Shown piece by piece: positions 5,200 to 30,055 of a DNA stretch of 45,371 bases. The DNA is taken from positions 1-45,371 of IMG/VR virus record IMGVR_UViG_3300021420_000061; one strand, 5' to 3'. The stretch's first letter is position 1; every line of letters begins with the position of its first letter. Both the position numbers and the translations under genes were made by a program. The stretch comes from a virus. Under the pieces are notes generated by a model. It was not told the origin of the DNA. It made no database searches and saw nothing but the letters and a program-made list of their open reading frames with translations.

Positions 5200-5361
5200 T
5201 TAGGCCGCCTGCGACTTGTTGGAAGCGGTTAATTCCCGATGGAGCAGCTTGCGAATCAGGCCAGCCAGCGTCATGAATTGGCTCTGCGCCAACTGCTTGA
5301 ACGCCTTATGGTCCCGGTCGCTAACCTCGACGGGAATGCGCTTCTTGCTGTTTTTTGCCAT
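5200..5361 (-). CDS. 53-aa ribbon-helix-helix protein from a leaderless mRNA
   Basis: A 53-aa protein: basic strand KKRIPVEVSDRDHKAFKQLA, then a helix-turn-helix-like part QFMTLAGLIRKLLHRELTA. This is the strand, helix and helix pattern of CopG/Arc-type DNA-binding proteins. There is no Shine-Dalgarno. Instead TTGACA-N17-TACATT ends eight nt before the ATG, so the transcript should start at or next to the start codon. It is divergent from the PEP-CTERM cassette at 5501 and is therefore its natural candidate regulator. It is too short for many gene finders. Confidence 0.78.
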   Translation of the reverse strand: MAKNSKKRIPVEVSDRDHKAFKQLAQSQFMTLAGLIRKLLHRELTASNKSQAA

Positions 5362-5369
5362 GTGCGCCG

Positions 5370-5398
5370 AATGTATTCAGAATGGACATTTGTGTCAA
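5370..5398 (-). promoter_or_regulatory. Sigma70-like promoter of the 53-aa RHH gene
   Basis: On the minus strand, TTGACA (5398-5393), a 17-bp spacer and TACATT (5375-5370), followed by eight bases and ATG. The -35 and -10 hexamers and the spacer length equal those of the rightward promoter at 39762-39790. A GACA-TTTG-TGTC dyad overlaps the -35 box and may be an operator. Confidence 0.8.
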
Positions 5399-5500
5399 GA
5401 AAAAACGCATCGCCAAATGCAAATAGTTGGCATCCGGCGTGCACTGCTTTCCGTCCGGGCCAGGGGGTTATACACAATGCACGTCTCTAGGAGAGTTAAC

Positions 5501-6034
5501 GTGAAAATGCTTTCCGCTTTGGTACTATTTTTTGCATCCCTCCCTGTTGTTCACGCCAGCACGATTCAGGACTGGACCTACAGCGCGACGAGCTTCTGTT
5601 GGGACCCTGGCTGCACCACGGCCACGCTCTCGCTCAATATGTTCACCGACCTCGAAACCGGAACCTTCGACGAGAACGGGAATGACGAGCAGTTTGTCGG
5701 CACCTTCCCGGTCGTAACGTCGCTCACAGGCTCGCTCAATGGCAACCCGCTTACGATGGTGAGCGGCGTAGGTTTCCCGCAGGATGGGACGATCCGTGGC
5801 TGGATTTTCAATGGGCTCCCCGAGGAGATCGAGTTCTCGGATGGCACGTTCGTCTACGACTTCCAGTGGGACTTGTCCGATGAGATTCTGCTAGGTGGCA
5901 GCAATCTCTATCACTTCGGAGACATCCTCGTAGACCCTGTTATCCCCACGCCGGAGCCCGGAGTGCTGGTACTCCTGACCATCGGCTTCGCCTGTCTGCT
6001 TGGGCGCAGGGTGGTGAGGAAGTCGTGGCTTTAG
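5501..6034 (+). CDS. Secreted protein with PEP-CTERM sorting signal
   Basis: A 177-aa protein. The GTG start at 5501 lies seven nt after AGGAG. Residues 1-19 form a Sec signal peptide (KMLSALVLFFASLPVVHA, cleavage after HA). The mature part is acidic and Gly/Asp/Thr-rich, probably all-beta. The C-terminus has PTPEPG (PEP at 151-153), a hydrophobic helix VLVLLTIGFACLL, then GRRVVRK. That is the tripartite PEP-CTERM signal, which in bacteria is recognised by exosortase (EpsH/XrtA) and links proteins to exopolysaccharide-forming surfaces. The phage has no exosortase, so it must use the host's. It is probably a host-derived cargo gene. It overlaps the next gene by 10 nt. Confidence 0.85.
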   Translation: MKMLSALVLFFASLPVVHASTIQDWTYSATSFCWDPGCTTATLSLNMFTDLETGTFDENGNDEQFVGTFPVVTSLTGSLNGNPLTMVSGVGFPQDGTIRGWIFNGLPEEIEFSDGTFVYDFQWDLSDEILLGGSNLYHFGDILVDPVIPTPEPGVLVLLTIGFACLLGRRVVRKSWL

Positions 6035-6309
6035 GGCCAGACATCATCACCGAGGCCGGCGGTTATGAGTCTGCACGAGAGCTACTGCACGATCCGGTCT
6101 TTGTGGGCATGTTCCTAGTGGGGGTGCTGATCGTGGTTCTCTTCAATGTCGCTTACATCAAGTCTGGGGGCAACATGAAACGATTCATCTGCTGGCTGCG
6201 TGGCTGCAAGACGGGACACGCCGACGTCGGACCTGAAGTAAGCTCGGCAGGGCCGTGCTCGCGCTGCAAAAACACGGACCCCGCCAAGCATTGCTACCCG
6301 TTGCTTTAG
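6025..6309 (+). CDS. Single-TM, Cys-rich small protein
   Basis: A 94-aa protein with a GTG start at 6025 behind GTGAGGA, overlapping the PEP-CTERM gene, so the two are probably co-translated. One membrane helix (VFVGMFLVGVLIVVLFNVAY, residues about 25-44) is followed by a basic, Cys-rich tail with CWLRGC, CSRC and a final C-x4 end. The tail resembles a small metal knuckle. An internal ATG at about 6175 could give a 44-aa tail-only form. Its stop overlaps the convergent stop of the gene at 6306. It may act with the PEP-CTERM protein at the envelope; the function is unknown. Confidence 0.7.
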   Translation: MALGPDIITEAGGYESARELLHDPVFVGMFLVGVLIVVLFNVAYIKSGGNMKRFICWLRGCKTGHADVGPEVSSAGPCSRCKNTDPAKHCYPLL

Positions 6310-6892: not shown

Positions 6893-7117
6893 TTAGGAAT
6901 TACTAGGAGCAGGTGCGGCAGAGGATGGGCCATTGAGCCACTCCATGAGAGCCGGTTCCACGAGGTCGATGAGCTCCTGCTCGGTGATCGGTTTCCAGCG
7001 TTGCGGGAATTCGCTGCCGCCCGAGACTAGGATCGACTTTACGCCGCCAGGACCGGCAGTGATCTGAAGGCTCGTCGAGCCGTCAGAGCTCTTGAGTGTG
7101 AAAGTTTTGTCGAACAT
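6893..7117 (-). CDS. Small hypothetical late protein
   Basis: A 74-aa protein. Its ATG overlaps the beta-barrel gene's stop (TGATG), with GAGG five nt upstream. A beta hairpin-like N-terminus (KTFTLKSSDGSTSLQI) and a helix (ITEQELIDLVEPALMEWL) are visible. There is no membrane segment. The function is unknown. The 65 bp to the next gene hold only that gene's ribosome binding site. Confidence 0.65.
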   Translation of the reverse strand: MFDKTFTLKSSDGSTSLQITAGPGGVKSILVSGGSEFPQRWKPITEQELIDLVEPALMEWLNGPSSAAPAPSNS

Positions 7118-7728
7118 CAGAACCTCAGACCGATGCCGGCCGAGAGTTGTGCGGCGTTCGTCACCACCACGTTACCGCTGCCAGGGATGGCCGAGGAGTG
7201 AATTAAATCCAGTTCGAGAAGTCGAATCGACATCGTGGCGTTCACCGGAATGTCGAGTCCTCCGCCGATCTTGAATGCCGCGTGCGTGGTCTGGTCTGTG
7301 CCGGCTGCGCAGTTCTGGGCTGCGACGCACTGGTTACGCGCGAAGCCAAAGCCCACGTTGGCGAAGGGCTGGAACGCCTGATTGTTGAACAGGTTCGGCT
7401 TTGAGAACTGGAGTCGAAACTCCGGGCCGCCCGTCAGCACGTAGTCCGAAGGCTTCGAGAGCGAGAAGTAGTCCCCGCGGAGCGAGAGCGTCATGTCGTA
7501 CTGCTTGGCGATCAGGCTTTGGAACGTGTACGCCGGCACTGCCACGCTGCCCCAGAAGCCGTTATTTGTTGCATTGCCGGAAGTCGCTGAGTAGCCGGCG
7601 CTGAGGGAGATGGAGTATCCGGGTAGCGAAGCGGGAGGGGGCACGACGGGGGCGCTTTGCGCGAAAGCAGGTAGAGCGATAAAAAGAACCACGAGAAAGA
7701 GAAGCACCGCGAGCAGCTTGAGTTTCAT
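7117..7728 (-). CDS. Phage-encoded outer-membrane beta-barrel protein
   Basis: A 203-aa protein with a clear Sec signal peptide (residues 1-24, ending PAFAQ), a Pro-rich linker, and about eight alternating amphipathic strands (YSISLSAGYSAT, YDMTLSLRGDYFSL, FRLQFSK, FQPFANVGFGFARN, AAFKIGGGLDIPV, MSIRLLELDLI). It ends in AQLSAGIGLRF, with the terminal Phe recognised by the BAM machinery. Size and layout fit an 8-stranded OmpA/OmpX-type barrel. By analogy with lambda Lom and similar phage barrels, it may modify the host surface, for example by superinfection exclusion or adhesion. AGGAG lies six nt before the ATG. Confidence 0.85.
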   Translation of the reverse strand: MKLKLLAVLLFLVVLFIALPAFAQSAPVVPPPASLPGYSISLSAGYSATSGNATNNGFWGSVAVPAYTFQSLIAKQYDMTLSLRGDYFSLSKPSDYVLTGGPEFRLQFSKPNLFNNQAFQPFANVGFGFARNQCVAAQNCAAGTDQTTHAAFKIGGGLDIPVNATMSIRLLELDLIHSSAIPGSGNVVVTNAAQLSAGIGLRF

Positions 7729-7737
7729 GTTCGTCTC

Positions 7738-8109
7738 CTATGCCTTATTCAGGTAATCCTGCAAAGTGTTGGTCGCGCTCATCCCGAGGCTCTGTGCGAC
7801 GGAGAGAGCCCAATTCGCGGCGGCGTCATTCCCTGTCCACCGCACGGCCACCTGCCACCAGGTGTCGCTGAGTTTGTAGCCGGCGCCCGAGAGCTGCGAA
7901 AGAATCAGGTCGCACTGGTGACGCAGCCTCATCCATCCGTCGTTATCGTCCTTAAACTTCGTTTTCCCGTCGTCGACGCCATACCCGACATCGCCAATCT
8001 CGAGGTCGCCCGGGTTGTGGCAGCGAGCCGGCAGAGAGCCTGGGACGAAGAAGCCTTCGGCCTTGGCGATTGCTGTTGCCATCTTCGAGATTTTGAGAGG
8101 ATCGATCAC
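7738..8109 (-). CDS. Endolysin-like peptidoglycan hydrolase
   Basis: A 123-aa protein with a GTG start overlapping the previous stop (GTGA). The N-terminus, ATAIAKAEGFFVPGSLPARC then HNPGDLE, matches the compact lysozyme or transglycosylase-like phage lysins. In those the Glu of the AxxEGFF motif (here E18) is the likely catalytic acid and xNPGxL forms the active-site floor. The usual central F-DxxDGWxxL motif is present (FKDDNDGWMRL). It has no signal peptide, so a holin is needed, and one lies two genes upstream. A single domain without a cell-wall-binding part is usual for Gram-negative hosts. Confidence 0.75.
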   Translation of the reverse strand: MIDPLKISKMATAIAKAEGFFVPGSLPARCHNPGDLEIGDVGYGVDDGKTKFKDDNDGWMRLRHQCDLILSQLSGAGYKLSDTWWQVAVRWTGNDAAANWALSVAQSLGMSATNTLQDYLNKA

Positions 8110-8393
8110 TTTTCGTTATCTCCGCAGTGCCTAGAGTCCTTCGAGCAGAGGTAAAATTCGATGGCTCCCACTTTCCTTTGCAGGTCGCGATTGCGCTGCT
8201 CATTGTCCGTTTTCATCATGTCGAGCTTCTGGTTGACCTGGCTGATCTGGTCTGTGTGGCCCGATACTTGGTCACTCAGCTTCGTGTAACCGATGATGAT
8301 CGCGGCCAGCAGGGCGATGATTTTCAGCCAGTCCGAAACGTCCTTCATGTTCAGGGAAAGCTGGCCAGTTTTCCCGTTCCCGTTCTCCGTCAC
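8106..8393 (-). CDS. Membrane protein with coiled coil, holin or spanin-like
   Basis: A 95-aa protein linked to both neighbours by stop/start overlap. A membrane helix (LKIIALLAAIIIGYTKL, residues about 23-39) is followed by a long coiled coil (VSGHTDQISQVNQKLDMMKT...RDLQRKVGAIEF) and a short CSKDSRHC end. This is the layout of an inner-membrane spanin (Rz-like, N-in/C-out) or of a holin-associated antiholin. Its location between holin and endolysin supports a lysis role. Confidence 0.65.
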   Translation of the reverse strand: MTENGNGKTGQLSLNMKDVSDWLKIIALLAAIIIGYTKLSDQVSGHTDQISQVNQKLDMMKTDNEQRNRDLQRKVGAIEFYLCSKDSRHCGDNEK

Positions 8394-8689
8394 GGTTGCT
8401 TCGGGCTCTCGCTCAACTTCGGAGAAGTCCCCGCCACGTTCGAGGTTGCCGAAATGTCATTCCCGTAAGCCTTGCTCATCGCGGTTCGCAGATTGATAGC
8501 GAAGGCTTTCAGCCAGATAAGGAAAAACCCGTAAAACTTTTGAAATCCTGGGTAGCCTGCAAAGCTCTCAACGGGTGGCAGGAACGTGTACAGGAGTGAA
8601 CTGATTGTGACGAGAGAGGTGCCGAAGGCCCACCACTGCGCGAAGCTAAGGCCGGCTAACCAGTGCAGCAGGTTGGATAGTGCGTTCAT
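8390..8689 (-). CDS. Putative holin
   Basis: A 99-aa protein with two hydrophobic segments (LHWLAGLSFAQWWAFGTSLV to SSLLYTFL, and FQKFYGFFLIWLKAFAI), and a polar, Ser/Pro/Lys-rich C-terminus. Start 8689 has GGAG eight nt upstream and overlaps the preceding stop (ATGA). Size and topology fit a small class II-type holin that would release the downstream endolysin. No sequence family is recognised. Confidence 0.65.
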   Translation of the reverse strand: MNALSNLLHWLAGLSFAQWWAFGTSLVTISSLLYTFLPPVESFAGYPGFQKFYGFFLIWLKAFAINLRTAMSKAYGNDISATSNVAGTSPKLSESPKQP

Positions 8690-22866: not shown

Positions 22867-23223
22867 CTATTTCACTGCCCCTGTGAGAGTCTGGCCGGGA
22901 AGCGACACCGTTGCGGTCGTGGGCAAAGGCACCGTCACATTTCCGGTCGAATCTGGTTTTATCGCGTTCACCGAAAGAACTACTCCGGTCGGCTGGCTTG
23001 GCGGAGCAGCGAGAAACCATCCCTGCGTCGAGTTCTGCCAGATCCAGAAACCGTCGCCCGCGAGGCAAAGCGACGGCACGGTAGGCGTTCCGCAGTTTGC
23101 CGCCTTGGTGGTTCCCGCGGTGGCGCCGAAGTAGATGATTTGTCCGCTCTGCGCGTGCAGGGCGAGAGCGACCGCGCACAGTAGGACGATCACAAAAGTT
23201 GCAAAGAGCATTCTGTTTTTCAT
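22867..23223 (-). CDS. Exported fibre-associated protein
   Basis: A 118-aa protein with a Sec signal peptide (residues 1-25, MLFATFVIVLLCAVALALHAQ). The mature part has GQIIYFGATAGTTKAANCGT and WIWQNSTQGWF, then VVLSVNAIKPDSTGNVTVPL, a motif style frequent in phage tail-fibre modules. It overlaps the tailspike-like gene by ATGA and is the last of four adjacent genes with export signals. It may be a secreted partner or shortened fibre. Confidence 0.7.
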   Translation of the reverse strand: MKNRMLFATFVIVLLCAVALALHAQSGQIIYFGATAGTTKAANCGTPTVPSLCLAGDGFWIWQNSTQGWFLAAPPSQPTGVVLSVNAIKPDSTGNVTVPLPTTATVSLPGQTLTGAVK

Positions 23224-25919
23224 GGCATTAACACCCTTCCTTGGAGGATGGCTTGCGCGATTAGCGAGGATTTTGTTGGAGCCCCAGGTACCACCACACC
23301 GGTTCCTGTGCCCAGGAGAGCCGCGGTCACGGGCGAGCCCGATGCTCCCGTGAAGTTCAGTTGCAAAGTATCTGCGAGCGAGCCTGTGCCGGTGGGCTGG
23401 AAAATGACCGAGATCGAGCAGCTCGTCCCATTCGCCAGCGTCCCCACGCAGGTATTCGCAGGGCTCGATGCGGTGAAGTAGTTCACTCCGCTTGCGTAGG
23501 TCGAGCCCACGTTCGTGATCGAGGCGCCCGTATTATTCGTGAAGGTCAGGCTCACTGCGACGCTCATGGTCCCGACAGCCACGTTCCCAAAGTTCACGCT
23601 CGAAGGCGAGACGAACGGAGTGAGCACGTACACGGCAGAGCCCACTGCGCTGTCCGAAGAGAATCCAGTTCCCCCGGCGACGGCGAAGAGAGTTTCACTG
23701 ACGGCGACTGACACGGGACCGCTGTACAGCGTGCTTCCTGCCGCACAACCGGTTGTGCCGTTCGTGGCGGGGGCGCCGGTCGTGTTGTAGCAGATGACCG
23801 TGAAAGCGGTTGAGCTGATCGTCACCGATTGCGAGCCGGTATAGGTTCCGCCCACTGGGCTGAAGGTCGGGATTCCTGCCGGCGGTGCCGAGGAGCCAAT
23901 CACCATCAGGTTTGAAACCATGCGGCTATCGGTTGAACCTGATTTCGTAGCAACGGCCTGCACGCCGCTGGTTTGAGCAACAGTGAAGGCACCCGAGTAG
24001 ACGAGAGAATTGCAGGTTCCGTTTCCGTTCGTGCTCGGATAAGACGGCCCCAGATTCAGGCAAATTGTCGCTCCCGCTGGCCCTGTGCAGGTCACACTTT
24101 GCGATGTCGCGTAGGTTCCTGCGCCGGGAGTGCATACCGGTGTCGCGAGAGGCGTTGTGCCGATCACGTAGGATTGAAACTGTCCAAACGGGACAGTCGC
24201 CCCAAAGGAATCGGTCTGCGGGATGTAGCTATCTTCGAAACCGGATTTGCAGCCGATTGCACTCACAGTTTGCGTGGTCGCGATGGTGAGCGCGGATGAG
24301 TAGGTTTGTGTCGTTCCGGTCGGAGAGCATGATGCTCCGTGGGTCGGAATCGATCCGTCCGTCGTATAGAGAATCGTCGCGCCTGCCGTCAGGGGCTCGC
24401 TCAGTGTCAGCGTTTGCGACGTGGCATAGACTCCGGTGCTCGTTCGGGTTCCGCTCGGATAGAAAGTGCTGCCCTGCAGGCTGAAAACCGGCGGAGCAAC
24501 GATTGGAGTTTCAAGTCCAACGGCGAGCGGATGAGGGTAGGCGCATCCGCCAGCCGTGCAGGGTGTGTAACCCGGCTTTGCCGCATCGAATACGATGTCT
24601 CTCCCCGCCACCACAACGTCACTCGGAGCCCAGACTTTTCCAGTTGCGGGATTGACTGCCGAACACGGGTTGGCGAGGCCGGAATTTATGAGCGAAAACT
24701 GAGCTGCGCCCGTGCCCCCGCCGATGTTGTTCCAGATATAAATCGGATCGGGAAGCTGATGGACGTCCGCCGGCACCTGGCTCGGATCGACGAAGGAAGG
24801 CGATTGCGTGGCCGTCGATGCCCCTGCCGCTCCTTGGTGATAGCACATATAGCCGGTGCAGCAACCGACTGAAGGAACGTTTGATTGCGTCTGTTCTACG
24901 CTCGTAACAAACGAGGTGCCCACGAAACCGCCGCCGATGATCTGCTGCACTTCGTTGTCATAGGCGACGAAAGTTCCATCGCGCAGCCAGAAGTAGCGGC
25001 CGAGGTTTTTACCTGTGCCGTTCGGGTGCGAGATGTAGGTGAAGCGGTTCGCGATTATCTCAACGAAGCGTCCGCCAATCGTGCTCGTGGGGCCGTGCGT
25101 GAGTCCCGCAGAGCCGAAATACTTGTTGTGGCGCAGGACGATTCGGCAGTTGTTGTCGCAATCGGGAAACTGCCCGATCTCATCGGCCGTGACGTTTTCG
25201 ATGTAGAGGTTTATCGTCCCGTTGGTGTCGGCAGTTCCCATCGAAGTGTTCGCGTCCCAGTTGCTCGGATTTCCTGTGTTGATGCAGGAGCCGCCGGGCT
25301 TATAGACGAGGCTGCCGCTCTGGCTGCCAGGCACCGAGGGGCTTGTCGAATAGAGGCGCGAGTTGAAGAAAACGCCGCCGCAGGCATTCCACTCGACGCC
25401 ATTTCCAAGCACGCCATCAGGCAGAATCCCTGAGATGTTGTAAACCAGCGGAATCTTTGAGCCGCCGCCGGTCGTGTTCACATAGCCGCAGACCGGATTC
25501 GCCGGGCAGGTGGTCGTCCCGTTTACGAAATTGATTCCGCTCAGCGAGACGTTAAAAGTGTTCCCGCTTGTGATCGTGAAGGCGTAGGAAGTGTTCGGCA
25601 CATTGACCGTGATTGTCGGGCCGCCCGAGCCGTTTGCGCCGCCTGTTCCCTGTATAAAAATCTGCTTCGTCGTCGAGATTGCGACGTTCATCGTGCAAGT
25701 TCCGCTCGGGATCGCCACTGTATCGCCATCAGAGGCCAGGTTGATTGCCGCCTGGATGTCGAGCTGCCCGGTGTTGTTATTGCAGCTCGCCGCAGTGAAG
25801 GTCGAGGCGTGGACGGCACGAGCAGCAGGAAAGAGTCGAACGAACGCGCAGAAAGCGATGAAGGCGAGGAGCAGCAGGCTCGCGCCTTTTTCCCACCGAG
25901 GCTTTAGTTGTGGAAGCAT
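23220..25919 (-). CDS. Exported tailspike-like beta-helix protein with Ig-type modules
   Basis: An 899-aa protein with a basic N-region, then a hydrophobic export helix (LLLLAFIAFCAFVRLFP) ending AVHAS. It continues with a parallel beta-helix resembling pectate lyases (IQAAINLASDGDTVAIPSGT, then coils such as INLYIENVTADEIGQFPDC and FVEIIANRFTYISHP). After residue about 480 come chitobiase C-terminal-like modules (YATSQTLTLSEPLTAGATIL, YTTDGSIPTHG), at least two more shorter copies, and an ASH/HYDIN-type domain (SPSSVNFGNVAVGTM) near 790-880. It is a probable polysaccharide-binding or depolymerising spike, or a secreted surface protein. The start overlaps the upstream gene by 16 nt. Confidence 0.72.
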   Translation of the reverse strand: MLPQLKPRWEKGASLLLLAFIAFCAFVRLFPAARAVHASTFTAASCNNNTGQLDIQAAINLASDGDTVAIPSGTCTMNVAISTTKQIFIQGTGGANGSGGPTITVNVPNTSYAFTITSGNTFNVSLSGINFVNGTTTCPANPVCGYVNTTGGGSKIPLVYNISGILPDGVLGNGVEWNACGGVFFNSRLYSTSPSVPGSQSGSLVYKPGGSCINTGNPSNWDANTSMGTADTNGTINLYIENVTADEIGQFPDCDNNCRIVLRHNKYFGSAGLTHGPTSTIGGRFVEIIANRFTYISHPNGTGKNLGRYFWLRDGTFVAYDNEVQQIIGGGFVGTSFVTSVEQTQSNVPSVGCCTGYMCYHQGAAGASTATQSPSFVDPSQVPADVHQLPDPIYIWNNIGGGTGAAQFSLINSGLANPCSAVNPATGKVWAPSDVVVAGRDIVFDAAKPGYTPCTAGGCAYPHPLAVGLETPIVAPPVFSLQGSTFYPSGTRTSTGVYATSQTLTLSEPLTAGATILYTTDGSIPTHGASCSPTGTTQTYSSALTIATTQTVSAIGCKSGFEDSYIPQTDSFGATVPFGQFQSYVIGTTPLATPVCTPGAGTYATSQSVTCTGPAGATICLNLGPSYPSTNGNGTCNSLVYSGAFTVAQTSGVQAVATKSGSTDSRMVSNLMVIGSSAPPAGIPTFSPVGGTYTGSQSVTISSTAFTVICYNTTGAPATNGTTGCAAGSTLYSGPVSVAVSETLFAVAGGTGFSSDSAVGSAVYVLTPFVSPSSVNFGNVAVGTMSVAVSLTFTNNTGASITNVGSTYASGVNYFTASSPANTCVGTLANGTSCSISVIFQPTGTGSLADTLQLNFTGASGSPVTAALLGTGTGVVVPGAPTKSSLIAQAILQGRVLMP

Positions 25920-27460
25920 ATTCCAGACGACTCCTGCGAGGCTGTGCTCGCACTCAGCAGTACTTTTGGAGCGGCACCCGTTCGCGCGTTCAACAGCATC
26001 ATGGAAACGCCCTGAGCGTTGTTGGCCCCATATCCCCCGAAGAAGTTAGAACCTTGCGGCGACGGATAGAGATAAGCGACCCACTCGATTTGCGATGCGC
26101 TGGCCCATCCAAGCTCCGCGAAACAAACGTCTGGTCCTACTCCGCCGTTGGTCAACGTGAGCGTTTGTCCTGTGACTGTTTGACTGCCCACGCCGCTAGT
26201 CGATGAGTTTTGCGTGTCGAGCGCAATCGTTCCCGACGAAGCGCGAATGACGTAATAAATAAAATAGGCCGTGGTGCTCGCAGACATCGTGGGCGTGAAT
26301 GTCGATGTGCTTGTCCGTGTTGCGACCGTGTAGCCGCAACTGAGGTCTACGCTTCCGCCCGTCTGTTTGCAGGTGTTAGCTGCGCTCGGCACCGTCCAGG
26401 TGTTCGCTGAGCCGCCGCTGCCATTGTCGACAACCGATGAAATGGTCGCCTGCGTCGAGCCGGGTTGTACCTGGGCATGGAAGAAAATCAGGTCGCCTGC
26501 GTTGGCCGTCACGGGCAAAGTAATCGCCGGACATCCCGGCGAGCAGGTCTGTGGCGCGGTTGTGCTCGTCGTACCGGGAATCCCCTGCGAAATATACGAA
26601 AACGGCGTCGAGGGAGCGGTATAGGCTGTCGCTGGCTTCACTGCCACAGCCGTTAGCGAGAAATAATTTGTCGTGTTGAACGTGATGGCCGCACCGCTCG
26701 ACGTATCGAGATTCGCCGGATCGCCGATGAAATCCAAAATGTAGGGAGAGCTCGGGCTCGCTATACCGGCTCCGCTGTCAATCTGTTCAACGATCAGGTC
26801 ATTCGTGCCGGTGAGCGTGAACGACGGCCCGGTGCAGGGCGTACAACCGGCGCTAGAGTGACTTGCCGTGCTCCCGTTTCCCGAGTTGTCGATCGACATC
26901 GCACAGGGCGTTCCACTGCAATTTGGCGGCGCGTATTCCTTAAATTCCAAGAATTGGAAACTGGTGGACGTTCCTGAGAGGTTGATGGTGACAATTGTCG
27001 CGCCGCCTGCTCCACCGAGAACGTGCCAAGCATCCTCGTTGTCGTTACCCGAATTGAAAATATGGCAGGTGCTCGAAGTGCAGTTTACGAATGTGTCCAC
27101 CTTGTCGCCCGAACCTGTCAGGCACGGATTTGATGACACGCAGCTAAAAGCGGAACTGATTGTCAGGTTGTTTCCCGTGGTGATGCCGGCGCGCAGAAAA
27201 CTTCCAGCTGTCGTGGCAAAAATCTTGAACGAACACGCCGTGCTGGTTCCGAGCGTTCCGCACGCACCGTCCTGCACTTCCCATCCGCCCGCCCCTGTCG
27301 TGGTTCCCGAAGTGGCTTGCAGATAGGCCCATTCGCCGGTCACGGACACCGGATTCGCCGCGAGGATCTGCGACTTCGCCATGACCTGCGATTTAGACAT
27401 CACCTGCTGCGCACCGCAGGGGAGCGCGAAGGAGAGGATCGCGAGGAGAAGCCGTTTCAC
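25904..27460 (-). CDS. Exported Cys-rich beta protein, fibre-like
   Basis: A 518-aa protein; GTG start at 27460, GAGG nine nt upstream. Signal peptide at residues 1-18 (RLLLAILSFALPCGAQ). Then short heptad-like repeats KSQVMAKSQIL and two similar halves of Ig-like or lectin-like beta structure, each with many Cys (CSFKIFATTAGSFLRAGITT; GDLIFFHAQVQPGSTQATIS). The abundant cysteines fit disulfide formation after export. The second half resembles the VTDSLGNTW-type domain of the giant tail protein. It may be an exported fibre or an adhesin. Confidence 0.68.
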   Translation of the reverse strand: MKRLLLAILSFALPCGAQQVMSKSQVMAKSQILAANPVSVTGEWAYLQATSGTTTGAGGWEVQDGACGTLGTSTACSFKIFATTAGSFLRAGITTGNNLTISSAFSCVSSNPCLTGSGDKVDTFVNCTSSTCHIFNSGNDNEDAWHVLGGAGGATIVTINLSGTSTSFQFLEFKEYAPPNCSGTPCAMSIDNSGNGSTASHSSAGCTPCTGPSFTLTGTNDLIVEQIDSGAGIASPSSPYILDFIGDPANLDTSSGAAITFNTTNYFSLTAVAVKPATAYTAPSTPFSYISQGIPGTTSTTAPQTCSPGCPAITLPVTANAGDLIFFHAQVQPGSTQATISSVVDNGSGGSANTWTVPSAANTCKQTGGSVDLSCGYTVATRTSTSTFTPTMSASTTAYFIYYVIRASSGTIALDTQNSSTSGVGSQTVTGQTLTLTNGGVGPDVCFAELGWASASQIEWVAYLYPSPQGSNFFGGYGANNAQGVSMMLLNARTGAAPKVLLSASTASQESSGICFHN

Positions 27461-30055
27461 TTAGAAGAGCCTCGTCACTGATGCGTCAAGCTGATAGGTG
27501 CCGGTTCCGGTCGTGCAGGCCGTATAGGTCGTCGCGTACTGGATAATCGAGCCGTTCGTCGAGATGACGAAGGTGCCGCTCGCTCCGGCGGTAGCCAGGC
27601 TCGTGTTGAAATGGAAAGCGGTGGTGAACCCGGCCGTTTTCTGGTCGTAGACGCCGATGCCCACGGCCGAATGCGTGGTCGCGTTCGAATCCGTCCAGGT
27701 CAGGTTGAAAACGACTTGCCCGGCGGTCACGCTCGAGCACGCAGTCCCAGTTTCGATGAAGTCAAAATGCACTTCGTATTGCCCGGCCACGTTGCAAGCG
27801 CCGGCGACGTTGTTGCAAAGCGTCGCCGTGCCCAGGGATGCCGTGTTCCCGGTCGAGTGAACTTGTCCGGTCTGCCTTCGCACCAGCAGGCCGAAGTTCG
27901 ATGAGCCGTTTGTGGCGCAGGCAATCTCATGCGCCGTCGAATCCGGATAGCAGGCGGCAGTGCCCGATACGTTTGTTGGCGCGGTGCCTTCGGTTTCGCA
28001 AATGGCTCCGGCGCTTCCGGCCGTGCAAGCGGGTGCGGTGCCGACTGCGACCTGCCCGGTGAATTGTGCCCCTGCGGAGTCTGTGCAAGTGAACACATTC
28101 GCCGTGGTATGCCCGTCATCGCATAGGGAAGCCGTCAGGAGGCCGTGCGTTGAATCCGTGGCCTTGGGGATGAATCCAGCGGTGAGGGCTGCGGCCATTC
28201 CCGCCGCGATCGCATCGGCCGCGTTGATTCGCAGGTGGGTGTTTCCGTTTGTCGAATCGTAAGCGAGTACGCCGTTCGCGCCAGAAGTCGCACCGGCAAT
28301 CACGGGAACCTTGAAGGAATTTGCCCCGCCAGCACTCAGGTCTACGAGCCCAGAAGCGCCCATCGTCAGGGTGTGCGAAGAAACCAGGGTGAAATCTCCA
28401 GCGCAACCGAACGCTCCGCCATTGTTGATCTGAAAACTTAGGGCCGTGATCGTGCAGGGCGTTGAGCTGGCCGCGCTGTTCAGCGAGACAGAGCCATCGG
28501 CGTTGATTGTCTCCGTCATGTTCGTGCCGGCTTTGGCCGAACGAGCGCAGCGCGCGATGTAATTCGTATTGTCGGGTGATGAAATCGTGCACCAGGTGTT
28601 CTGAGGCGGGACGAGCGTCGTTTGCCCATTGATCGTCGACGTGGTAGGCGTAACGGTGACGGCGCCTGCGCCAGTCACAAAGACCGCAAAAGTGAAGTTC
28701 GAGGAGCAGCCGGACGAGCCTGCCTGCGGCAGTGTCACGGCAACGGCGCTGCCCGATGTGTATTGAATCGTCGTCATGCGGTCGCGCAGCGCGGTGGCGG
28801 AATCGCAGAGGATTGTGTCGGTCGTTCCGGCAACGGAGCGTCCGGAGAGCCCCGGAGAGACGAGGGTATAGTCCGCGTTGTTATTGGCCTGCACCGCTTG
28901 GCCGGTGAGGCCGGGCGTCAGCAGATTGCAATTCGAGGAGCCTTCCGTCATCTGGAGCGAGTGCGCCGTGGGGTTCGCCGCCCCGCACACGCCGTTTGCA
29001 GGGCCGAGCACGCCGATTCGGGCATTCGCGAGGGTTCCGCTCGATATATTCGAGGCGTTGGTTGTATCGGTTGTGGCCGAGGATGCGAACGAAACCCCGT
29101 TGGTGCTCAGGCAGGTAATCGCGCCCGTGTTTGTCAGCGTGCAGTCGTTCGACATCGCAACGCCGGTAGGAACATTCGAGGCGTTGCCGACGAAGAAACT
29201 CCCAGAGGCCAGCGTCCCGGTCGCGAAATTCGTCGAAGGGCACCAGCTTGAGACGCCCGAACTGTTCTGGCAGAAGAGGCCGGTCCCGGTCGTGTTATGC
29301 CCGAAATCGATCCAGACCTGAGAGGAGTTCGACACCATCAGGTCGCCCTGGCCTGCACCGGCAACAGGCGCGAGAGAAGTGAAGGCTCCGCTATTGTTGA
29401 TCTGCCCGTTGATCGAGAGCACGCCGCCGGGAAGGGTGAAGTAAGACTGAAGGCCGGAAATTCCCGAGTTGCAGCCGGTGACGAGCGAGAGCACGCCGTT
29501 GTTATCGAACAGGCAGCCCGTCGAAAGGGCCAGAGTAGGGAGCGGAATCGTCTCTAGCCCTACGACGGATGGGGTTCCGGTTGAGCCGCCAATGTCACCA
29601 GCCGGTGGCGTGATACCGCCGCCTCCCCCGCCCCCGGTGCCGCTGCCCGATGAGCCTTGGGACATGCTTATCGCGACGACGACCGTGCCGCTCGTGTAGG
29701 CCGATACCCTCGCACGTATCTGCGCCAAGCCGGAAACGGTGACGCGCCAGGCTCCATTCGCCGTGGTCGAATTGACTCCGCTCGTCCCGCCGATCGCTAC
29801 CGCGTTGACTGCGTTGAATGTTCCGCCACTTCCGGGCTGTGCGTTGCCCTCGAATTGGACAGTCGCGCTCCATGTCCCCGTGATTTGAATTACCGAAGAA
29901 GCCGCATTATTTGCTACGTTCACGGTCAGGCAGGCGCCCGCCGTGGCGCACGTTCCGCCGTCCGATGCTGTTAGGTTTGCCGTCGCTGGCTGCGTCTGCG
30001 CACGAATGGGCAGAAGGAACGCGAGGACGGCTATTAGAAGCCACAGCTTTTTCAT
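27461..30055 (-). CDS. Exported tail-fibre-like protein
   Basis: An 864-aa protein, start 30055 after GGAGGGG. Signal peptide at residues 1-19 (LWLLIAVLAFLLPIRAQ). A beta domain (TGTWSATVQFEGNAQP, WRVTVSGLAQIRARVSAY) is followed by a GSGTGGGGGGG linker. Then come repeats of the style known from phage tail fibres: SFFVGNASNVPTGVAMSNDC, TNTGAITCLSTNGVSFASSA and NASNISSGTLANARI. The C-terminal third is a beta domain with YEVHFDFIETGTACSS. It sits directly downstream of the major capsid gene. Fibre identity is convincing; the export signal is unusual. Confidence 0.78.
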   Translation of the reverse strand: MKKLWLLIAVLAFLLPIRAQTQPATANLTASDGGTCATAGACLTVNVANNAASSVIQITGTWSATVQFEGNAQPGSGGTFNAVNAVAIGGTSGVNSTTANGAWRVTVSGLAQIRARVSAYTSGTVVVAISMSQGSSGSGTGGGGGGGITPPAGDIGGSTGTPSVVGLETIPLPTLALSTGCLFDNNGVLSLVTGCNSGISGLQSYFTLPGGVLSINGQINNSGAFTSLAPVAGAGQGDLMVSNSSQVWIDFGHNTTGTGLFCQNSSGVSSWCPSTNFATGTLASGSFFVGNASNVPTGVAMSNDCTLTNTGAITCLSTNGVSFASSATTDTTNASNISSGTLANARIGVLGPANGVCGAANPTAHSLQMTEGSSNCNLLTPGLTGQAVQANNNADYTLVSPGLSGRSVAGTTDTILCDSATALRDRMTTIQYTSGSAVAVTLPQAGSSGCSSNFTFAVFVTGAGAVTVTPTTSTINGQTTLVPPQNTWCTISSPDNTNYIARCARSAKAGTNMTETINADGSVSLNSAASSTPCTITALSFQINNGGAFGCAGDFTLVSSHTLTMGASGLVDLSAGGANSFKVPVIAGATSGANGVLAYDSTNGNTHLRINAADAIAAGMAAALTAGFIPKATDSTHGLLTASLCDDGHTTANVFTCTDSAGAQFTGQVAVGTAPACTAGSAGAICETEGTAPTNVSGTAACYPDSTAHEIACATNGSSNFGLLVRRQTGQVHSTGNTASLGTATLCNNVAGACNVAGQYEVHFDFIETGTACSSVTAGQVVFNLTWTDSNATTHSAVGIGVYDQKTAGFTTAFHFNTSLATAGASGTFVISTNGSIIQYATTYTACTTGTGTYQLDASVTRLF

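Follow-up and report, generated by a model that had tools for sequence, protein, structure and literature searches.

Why would a phage encode a protein built like a substrate of the bacterial exosortase system? Exosortase sorting occurs widely among environmental diderm bacteria, yet what most of its substrates do is obscure. The question is raised by a gene for a 177-amino-acid protein in the viral record IMGVR_UViG_3300021420_000061, the whole of which (45,371 nucleotides) was analysed here and is referred to as the window.

The window is a complete soil phage genome. Its termini are an identical 127-bp repeat, as in a circularised assembly, and it encodes a terminase (phrog_38), an SU10-like portal scoring just below the Pfam cut-off, and a capsid whose major-head match is weak. 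Profile matches also identified YqaJ and ERF recombination proteins, RusA, and a clamp loader. Three large proteins (864, 518, and 899 aa) with signal-peptide-like N-termini are encoded between the capsid gene and the downstream structural genes (23220-30055, minus strand); the last has CHB_HEX_C and ASH-type Ig domains. Their counterpart is absent from the related phage G006, and another related phage likewise encodes a large signal-peptide protein (L039:16019-18028). Secreted fibre-like proteins are odd for a phage.

The 177-residue protein and its PEP-CTERM assignment

The original prediction described a signal peptide followed by the PEP, hydrophobic helix, and basic tail order of exosortase substrates, and the open reading frame, sequence, and hydropathy bear this description out (Table 1). 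A basic-hydrophobic start ending VHA/S is followed by a middle part without a family match and by a final stretch PTPEPGVLVLLTIGFACLLGRRVVRKSWL, the C-terminus reading PTPEPG-VLVLLTIGFACLLG-RRVVRKSWL. Residues 151-177 thus contain what characterises a PEP-CTERM tail, namely a near-invariant Pro-Glu-Pro and then a hydrophobic helix and a basic cluster. The only peaks in the hydropathy profile are near residues 1-22 and 152-172, with no membrane segment between them, which is the topology expected of such a protein. An AlphaFold model computed without relatives was poor overall (mean pLDDT 43), with a local pLDDT of 66-81 in the C-terminal helix. No relatives of the ectodomain were found in IMG/VR, GTDB contigs, or GenBank phages; a 75-residue ectodomain match in a related phage was rejected as a homologue, the resemblance being compositional.

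Table 1. Features of the PEP-CTERM locus in the window
Feature	Position	Strand	Basis
53-aa ribbon-helix-helix-like gene, divergent from the cassette	5200..5361	-	E 0.018, below cut-off
Sigma-70-like promoter match, 9/12, facing the cassette	5355..5383	+	Consensus match only
Sigma-70-like promoter match, 10/12, facing the divergent gene	5370..5398	-	Consensus match only
Shine-Dalgarno-like AGGAG	5489..5493	+	Sequence; 7 bases ahead of the GTG, rated good
177-aa PEP-CTERM type secreted protein (borderline by curated thresholds)	5501..6034	+	GTG start 5501, stop ending 6034; ORF list, profiles, HMM
Predicted signal peptide, residues 1-19	5501..5557	+	Hydropathy and sequence reading; putative cleavage after VHA (VHA/S, signal-peptidase type)
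Pro-Glu-Pro motif, residues 151-153	5951..5959	+	PF07589/TIGR02595 scans
C-terminal hydrophobic helix, residues 154-168	5960..6004	+	Hydropathy; predicted helix 153-175 in structure model
Basic tail RRVVRKSWL, residues 169-177	6005..6031	+	Sequence
94-aa protein, one membrane segment and Cys-rich tail	6025..6309	+	ORF list, hydropathy, codon pattern

By curated thresholds, the protein is a borderline PEP-CTERM protein. In scans of the protein itself, PF07589 matched residues 149-170 (E 8e-4; 19.8 bits, cut-off 20.7) and TIGR02595 matched residues 150-171 (15.0 bits, cut-off 16). The profile check proposed with the original prediction therefore fell narrowly short in the protein scans, by about 1 bit for each model, but succeeded in the genome-level scan of the window, where TIGR02595 reached 18.7 bits against the same cut-off. 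Scores just below both curated cut-offs would also fit a periplasmic protein of an ordinary kind, anchored by a single membrane pass, in which a PEP-CTERM-like tail is present and never processed; even unsorted, this tail could plausibly act as a stop-transfer anchor. We nevertheless regard that explanation as unlikely. An independent HMM, for which 24 tails were taken from other IMG/VR contigs, ranked the 177-aa ORF first among the 2,953 ORFs of the window and related phages, with an E of 0.0039 against 0.53 for the next ORF, and its score was attained by none of 20,000 composition shuffles. A chance origin of the resemblance is thus unlikely. Moreover, tblastn with the protein matched the C-termini of further PEP-CTERM proteins (at best 53% over a 38-residue stretch), and clear PEP-CTERM genes occur in other phages, as described below. 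A tblastn search of GenBank phages with a consensus PEP-CTERM tail gave no matches, the 30-residue repetitive query being a weak one.

The composition of the mature part also argues against an unprocessed anchor. PEP-CTERM proteins have few basic residues and more Thr (Haft et al. 2006, PMC1569441); more Ser and Asn are also expected of them. Here, a single Lys or Arg is present where 12 would be expected from the phage's other proteins (p 6e-5), Thr is raised (11.6% vs 7.1%) as is Ser, and Asn is near the phage average. The exception is Cys, which is very low in PEP-CTERM proteins and is not low here (two residues, 1.6%).

A variable slot beside the lysis genes

In this part of the window, almost every gene runs on the minus strand; the PEP-CTERM gene and the ORF that overlaps it are reversed. 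They lie between the ribbon-helix-helix-like gene and the lysis region (~6.3-8.7 kb), whose small genes at 7738-8689 read as muramidase-like, spanin-like, and holin-like, and their 3' end abuts a convergent gene at 6306. Neither of the related phages G003 and G006 has a PEP-CTERM gene; the equivalent slot holds a Peptidase_C92-like gene in the former and a DUF5675 gene in the latter. From its absence in kin, its opposite strand, and its variable slot, we classify the PEP-CTERM gene as an accessory, moron-type phage gene that would have its own transcription. Ribbon-helix-helix-like genes occupy the equivalent place in two related phages. In the window, the promoter-like sites between this gene and the reversed pair overlap (5355-5398), and the ribbon-helix-helix-like protein is a possible regulator of the pair.

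The original prediction treated the two reversed genes as a cassette. The second ORF is indeed present and encodes a strong hydrophobic segment at about residues 24-43 followed by five Cys; what ties it to a cassette is the overlap, the 94-aa protein having no family match in profile searches and no relatives in anything searched. Its GTG lies within the last codons of the PEP-CTERM gene, so its translation may be coupled to that of its neighbour. Both ORFs have a codon-position GC bias like that of the capsid, portal, and terminase genes.

Because the gene adjoins the lysis region, could its product be a lysis protein? A unimolecular spanin has its N-terminus in the outer membrane, a C-terminal helix in the inner membrane, and an ectodomain between, and the C-terminal topology of the 177-aa protein is alike. 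A spanin of this type, however, carries a lipobox Cys as well as the C-terminal helix, whereas the signal here ends VHA-S-T without a Cys. Moreover, the gene is on the strand opposite to the lysis genes, an inner-membrane coiled-coil protein encoded at 8106-8393 could itself act as the spanin, and related phages lyse without a PEP-CTERM gene. We consider a spanin function very improbable. Least probable is that the gene does nothing for the phage, having been captured recently from a host or having entered the record when the assembly joined on host DNA: the gene is an orphan on the opposite strand, absent from kin and with an ectodomain lacking phage relatives, but the record is circular, the codon pattern is phage-like (GC by codon position 0.55/0.43/0.75, matching the portal and terminase genes), the gene is packed flush with phage genes, and further complete phages carry genes of this type.

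PEP-CTERM genes in other phages

Is the window an isolated case? Two DNA patterns for PEP-CTERM tails run on IMG/VR returned 43 and 12 stretches, giving about 40 PEP-CTERM contigs. Most of these stretches were the C-terminus of an ORF that also begins with a signal peptide, and an above-cut-off PF07589 match was found in 37 of the 40 records scanned. L090 and several other pattern hits were rejected as chance. Some contigs repeat one gene, and since many are fragments or may include proviral or host flanks, we placed weight on circularised genomes. Three of these have above-cut-off tails and a 127-bp terminal repeat each: G052 (100.2 kb), G075 (68.6 kb), and G083 (68.2 kb). Phage hallmarks were verified in G052 and G075, those of G083 being read by eye only. 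In G075, the PEP-CTERM gene (TIGR02595, 25.4 bits) is flanked by lysis genes on one side and the integrase on the other; this phage also encodes a portal, a capsid, and an endolysin. In G052, which encodes a capsid and an integrase, the PEP-CTERM gene (20.6 bits) lies among tail genes in reverse orientation. A linear 46-kb contig, G062, has an integrase and a reversed PEP-CTERM gene beside what read as terminase genes. The phage-database search put forward with the original prediction thus did find PEP-CTERM proteins on other phages, circularised genomes included, and the window is not a one-off.

Other observations concern individual carriers. G075 has two convergent PEP-CTERM-like ORFs with overlapping 3' ends (L155:17-718, plus strand, and L155:698-892, minus strand), the second of only 64 aa. 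One PEP-CTERM gene is common to two separate IMG/VR contigs, one of them the circularised G083 (L172, L178, L196:9555-10046), and is therefore maintained within a phage population. G028, a complete 104-kb phage with a related terminase, has a PEP-CTERM-like gene near an endolysin-like gene and integrases (L067:1429-2163, minus strand); this gene was not counted, as it scored below cut-off, had no TIGR02595 match, and was missed by the independent HMM. Integrases were found in G052, G075, G028, and G062.

Host, proposed role, and known systems

What host would process such a protein? In a search of 50,697 phage records, the sole match to the portal was the cultured Tunturiibacter phage Tunturi_3 (29% over 83%, E 7e-72), which was likewise the best match to the terminase. 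Tunturi_3 infects Tunturiibacter, of the phylum Acidobacteriota, and the host of the window phage is therefore probably an acidobacterium. A 203-aa signal-peptide protein encoded at 7117-7728 (minus strand) has a weak OMP_b-brl match (25.9 bits, cut-off 28.7); this possible phage outer-membrane barrel near the PEP-CTERM gene fits a diderm host. Host searches by terminase alignment to prophages and by plasmid matches of neighbouring proteins returned nothing, and two acidobacterial plasmid records contained no PEP-CTERM match. A PF09721 search of the phage found no exosortase, as the original prediction held, and so the PEP-CTERM protein would depend on the host's enzyme, for which the EpsH/XrtA system named in the original prediction is a candidate.

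We think it likely that the PEP-CTERM gene is accessory phage cargo whose product is destined for the envelope of the infected cell and sorted there by a host exosortase. The gene, arranged opposite to the neighbouring lysis and structural genes, would be transcribed separately from them. The signal peptide would direct Sec export and then be removed. As in the model published for PEP-CTERM proteins (PMC1569441), the protein would then be held in the inner membrane by its C-terminal helix and basic tail, with Pro-Glu-Pro at the periplasmic side; a host exosortase would recognise and cut the motif and pass the protein towards the cell's outer surface or its extracellular polysaccharide. Its partner may be the Cys-rich membrane protein encoded by the overlapping ORF. 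More speculatively, the surface of the infected cell would be altered, for example in the access of other phages or in cell-cell adhesion; effects on biofilm, shielding, and superinfection, as raised in the original prediction, are likewise speculation. Against accessory cargo we count the cut-offs missed in the protein scans, the lack of a PEP-CTERM match in Tunturi_3 and the two plasmids, the lack of ectodomain relatives in which the PEP residues could be compared, and the lack of an integrase.

The last point bears on when the gene would act. Lysogenic-conversion genes belong to temperate phages, marked by an integrase or other lysogeny gene, and searches of the window for tyrosine and serine integrases or recombinases found neither class. 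Lysogenic conversion is therefore unsupported for this phage, and expression during infection or in a carrier state is more likely. In temperate carriers, G075 among them, lysogenic conversion would be a natural role for the PEP-CTERM gene.

Phages may repeatedly borrow the host exosortase system. Tentatively, and with somewhat less than even confidence, we propose that several unrelated phage lineages independently carry exosortase substrates as recurring cargo, placing proteins on the infected-cell surface through the host PEP-CTERM route and thereby affecting adhesion, biofilm, or the entry of other phages. If this is true, phage-borne substrates would show that the exosortase pathway is worth hijacking and would provide small, tractable test proteins. 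Alongside the lipoprotein and barrel morons already described, they would represent a further way of remodelling the cell surface, and this in hosts, Acidobacteria among them, about whose phages very little is known.

How does this gene compare with described systems? In the open-licence literature, we found no paper on phage-encoded PEP-CTERM proteins, in line with the original prediction, which knew of no described system of this kind. Phage envelope cargo is already known, in the form of morons and lysogenic-conversion surface proteins such as lambda lom and bor; exosortase-tagged cargo is, as far as we found, an undescribed variant. Like lom and bor, it is an accessory gene that close kin lack, lying near lysis genes and on the other strand, with a product predicted to be envelope-targeted; unlike them, it has an exosortase tag instead of a lipobox or barrel, and its phage has no detected integrase. 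The window phage shares with Tunturi_3 (PP885686; PMC11924767) related portal and terminase proteins and the order terminase-portal-capsid, whereas Tunturi_3 is far larger (97.6 kb). With PEP-CTERM/exosortase (EpsH) sorting as described in bacteria (Haft et al. 2006, PMC1569441), the protein has in common its signal peptide, Pro-Glu-Pro, helix, basic tail, orphan ectodomain, scarcity of basic residues, and raised Thr, but it differs in its borderline scores and in being encoded by a phage, with no exosortase in the same genome.
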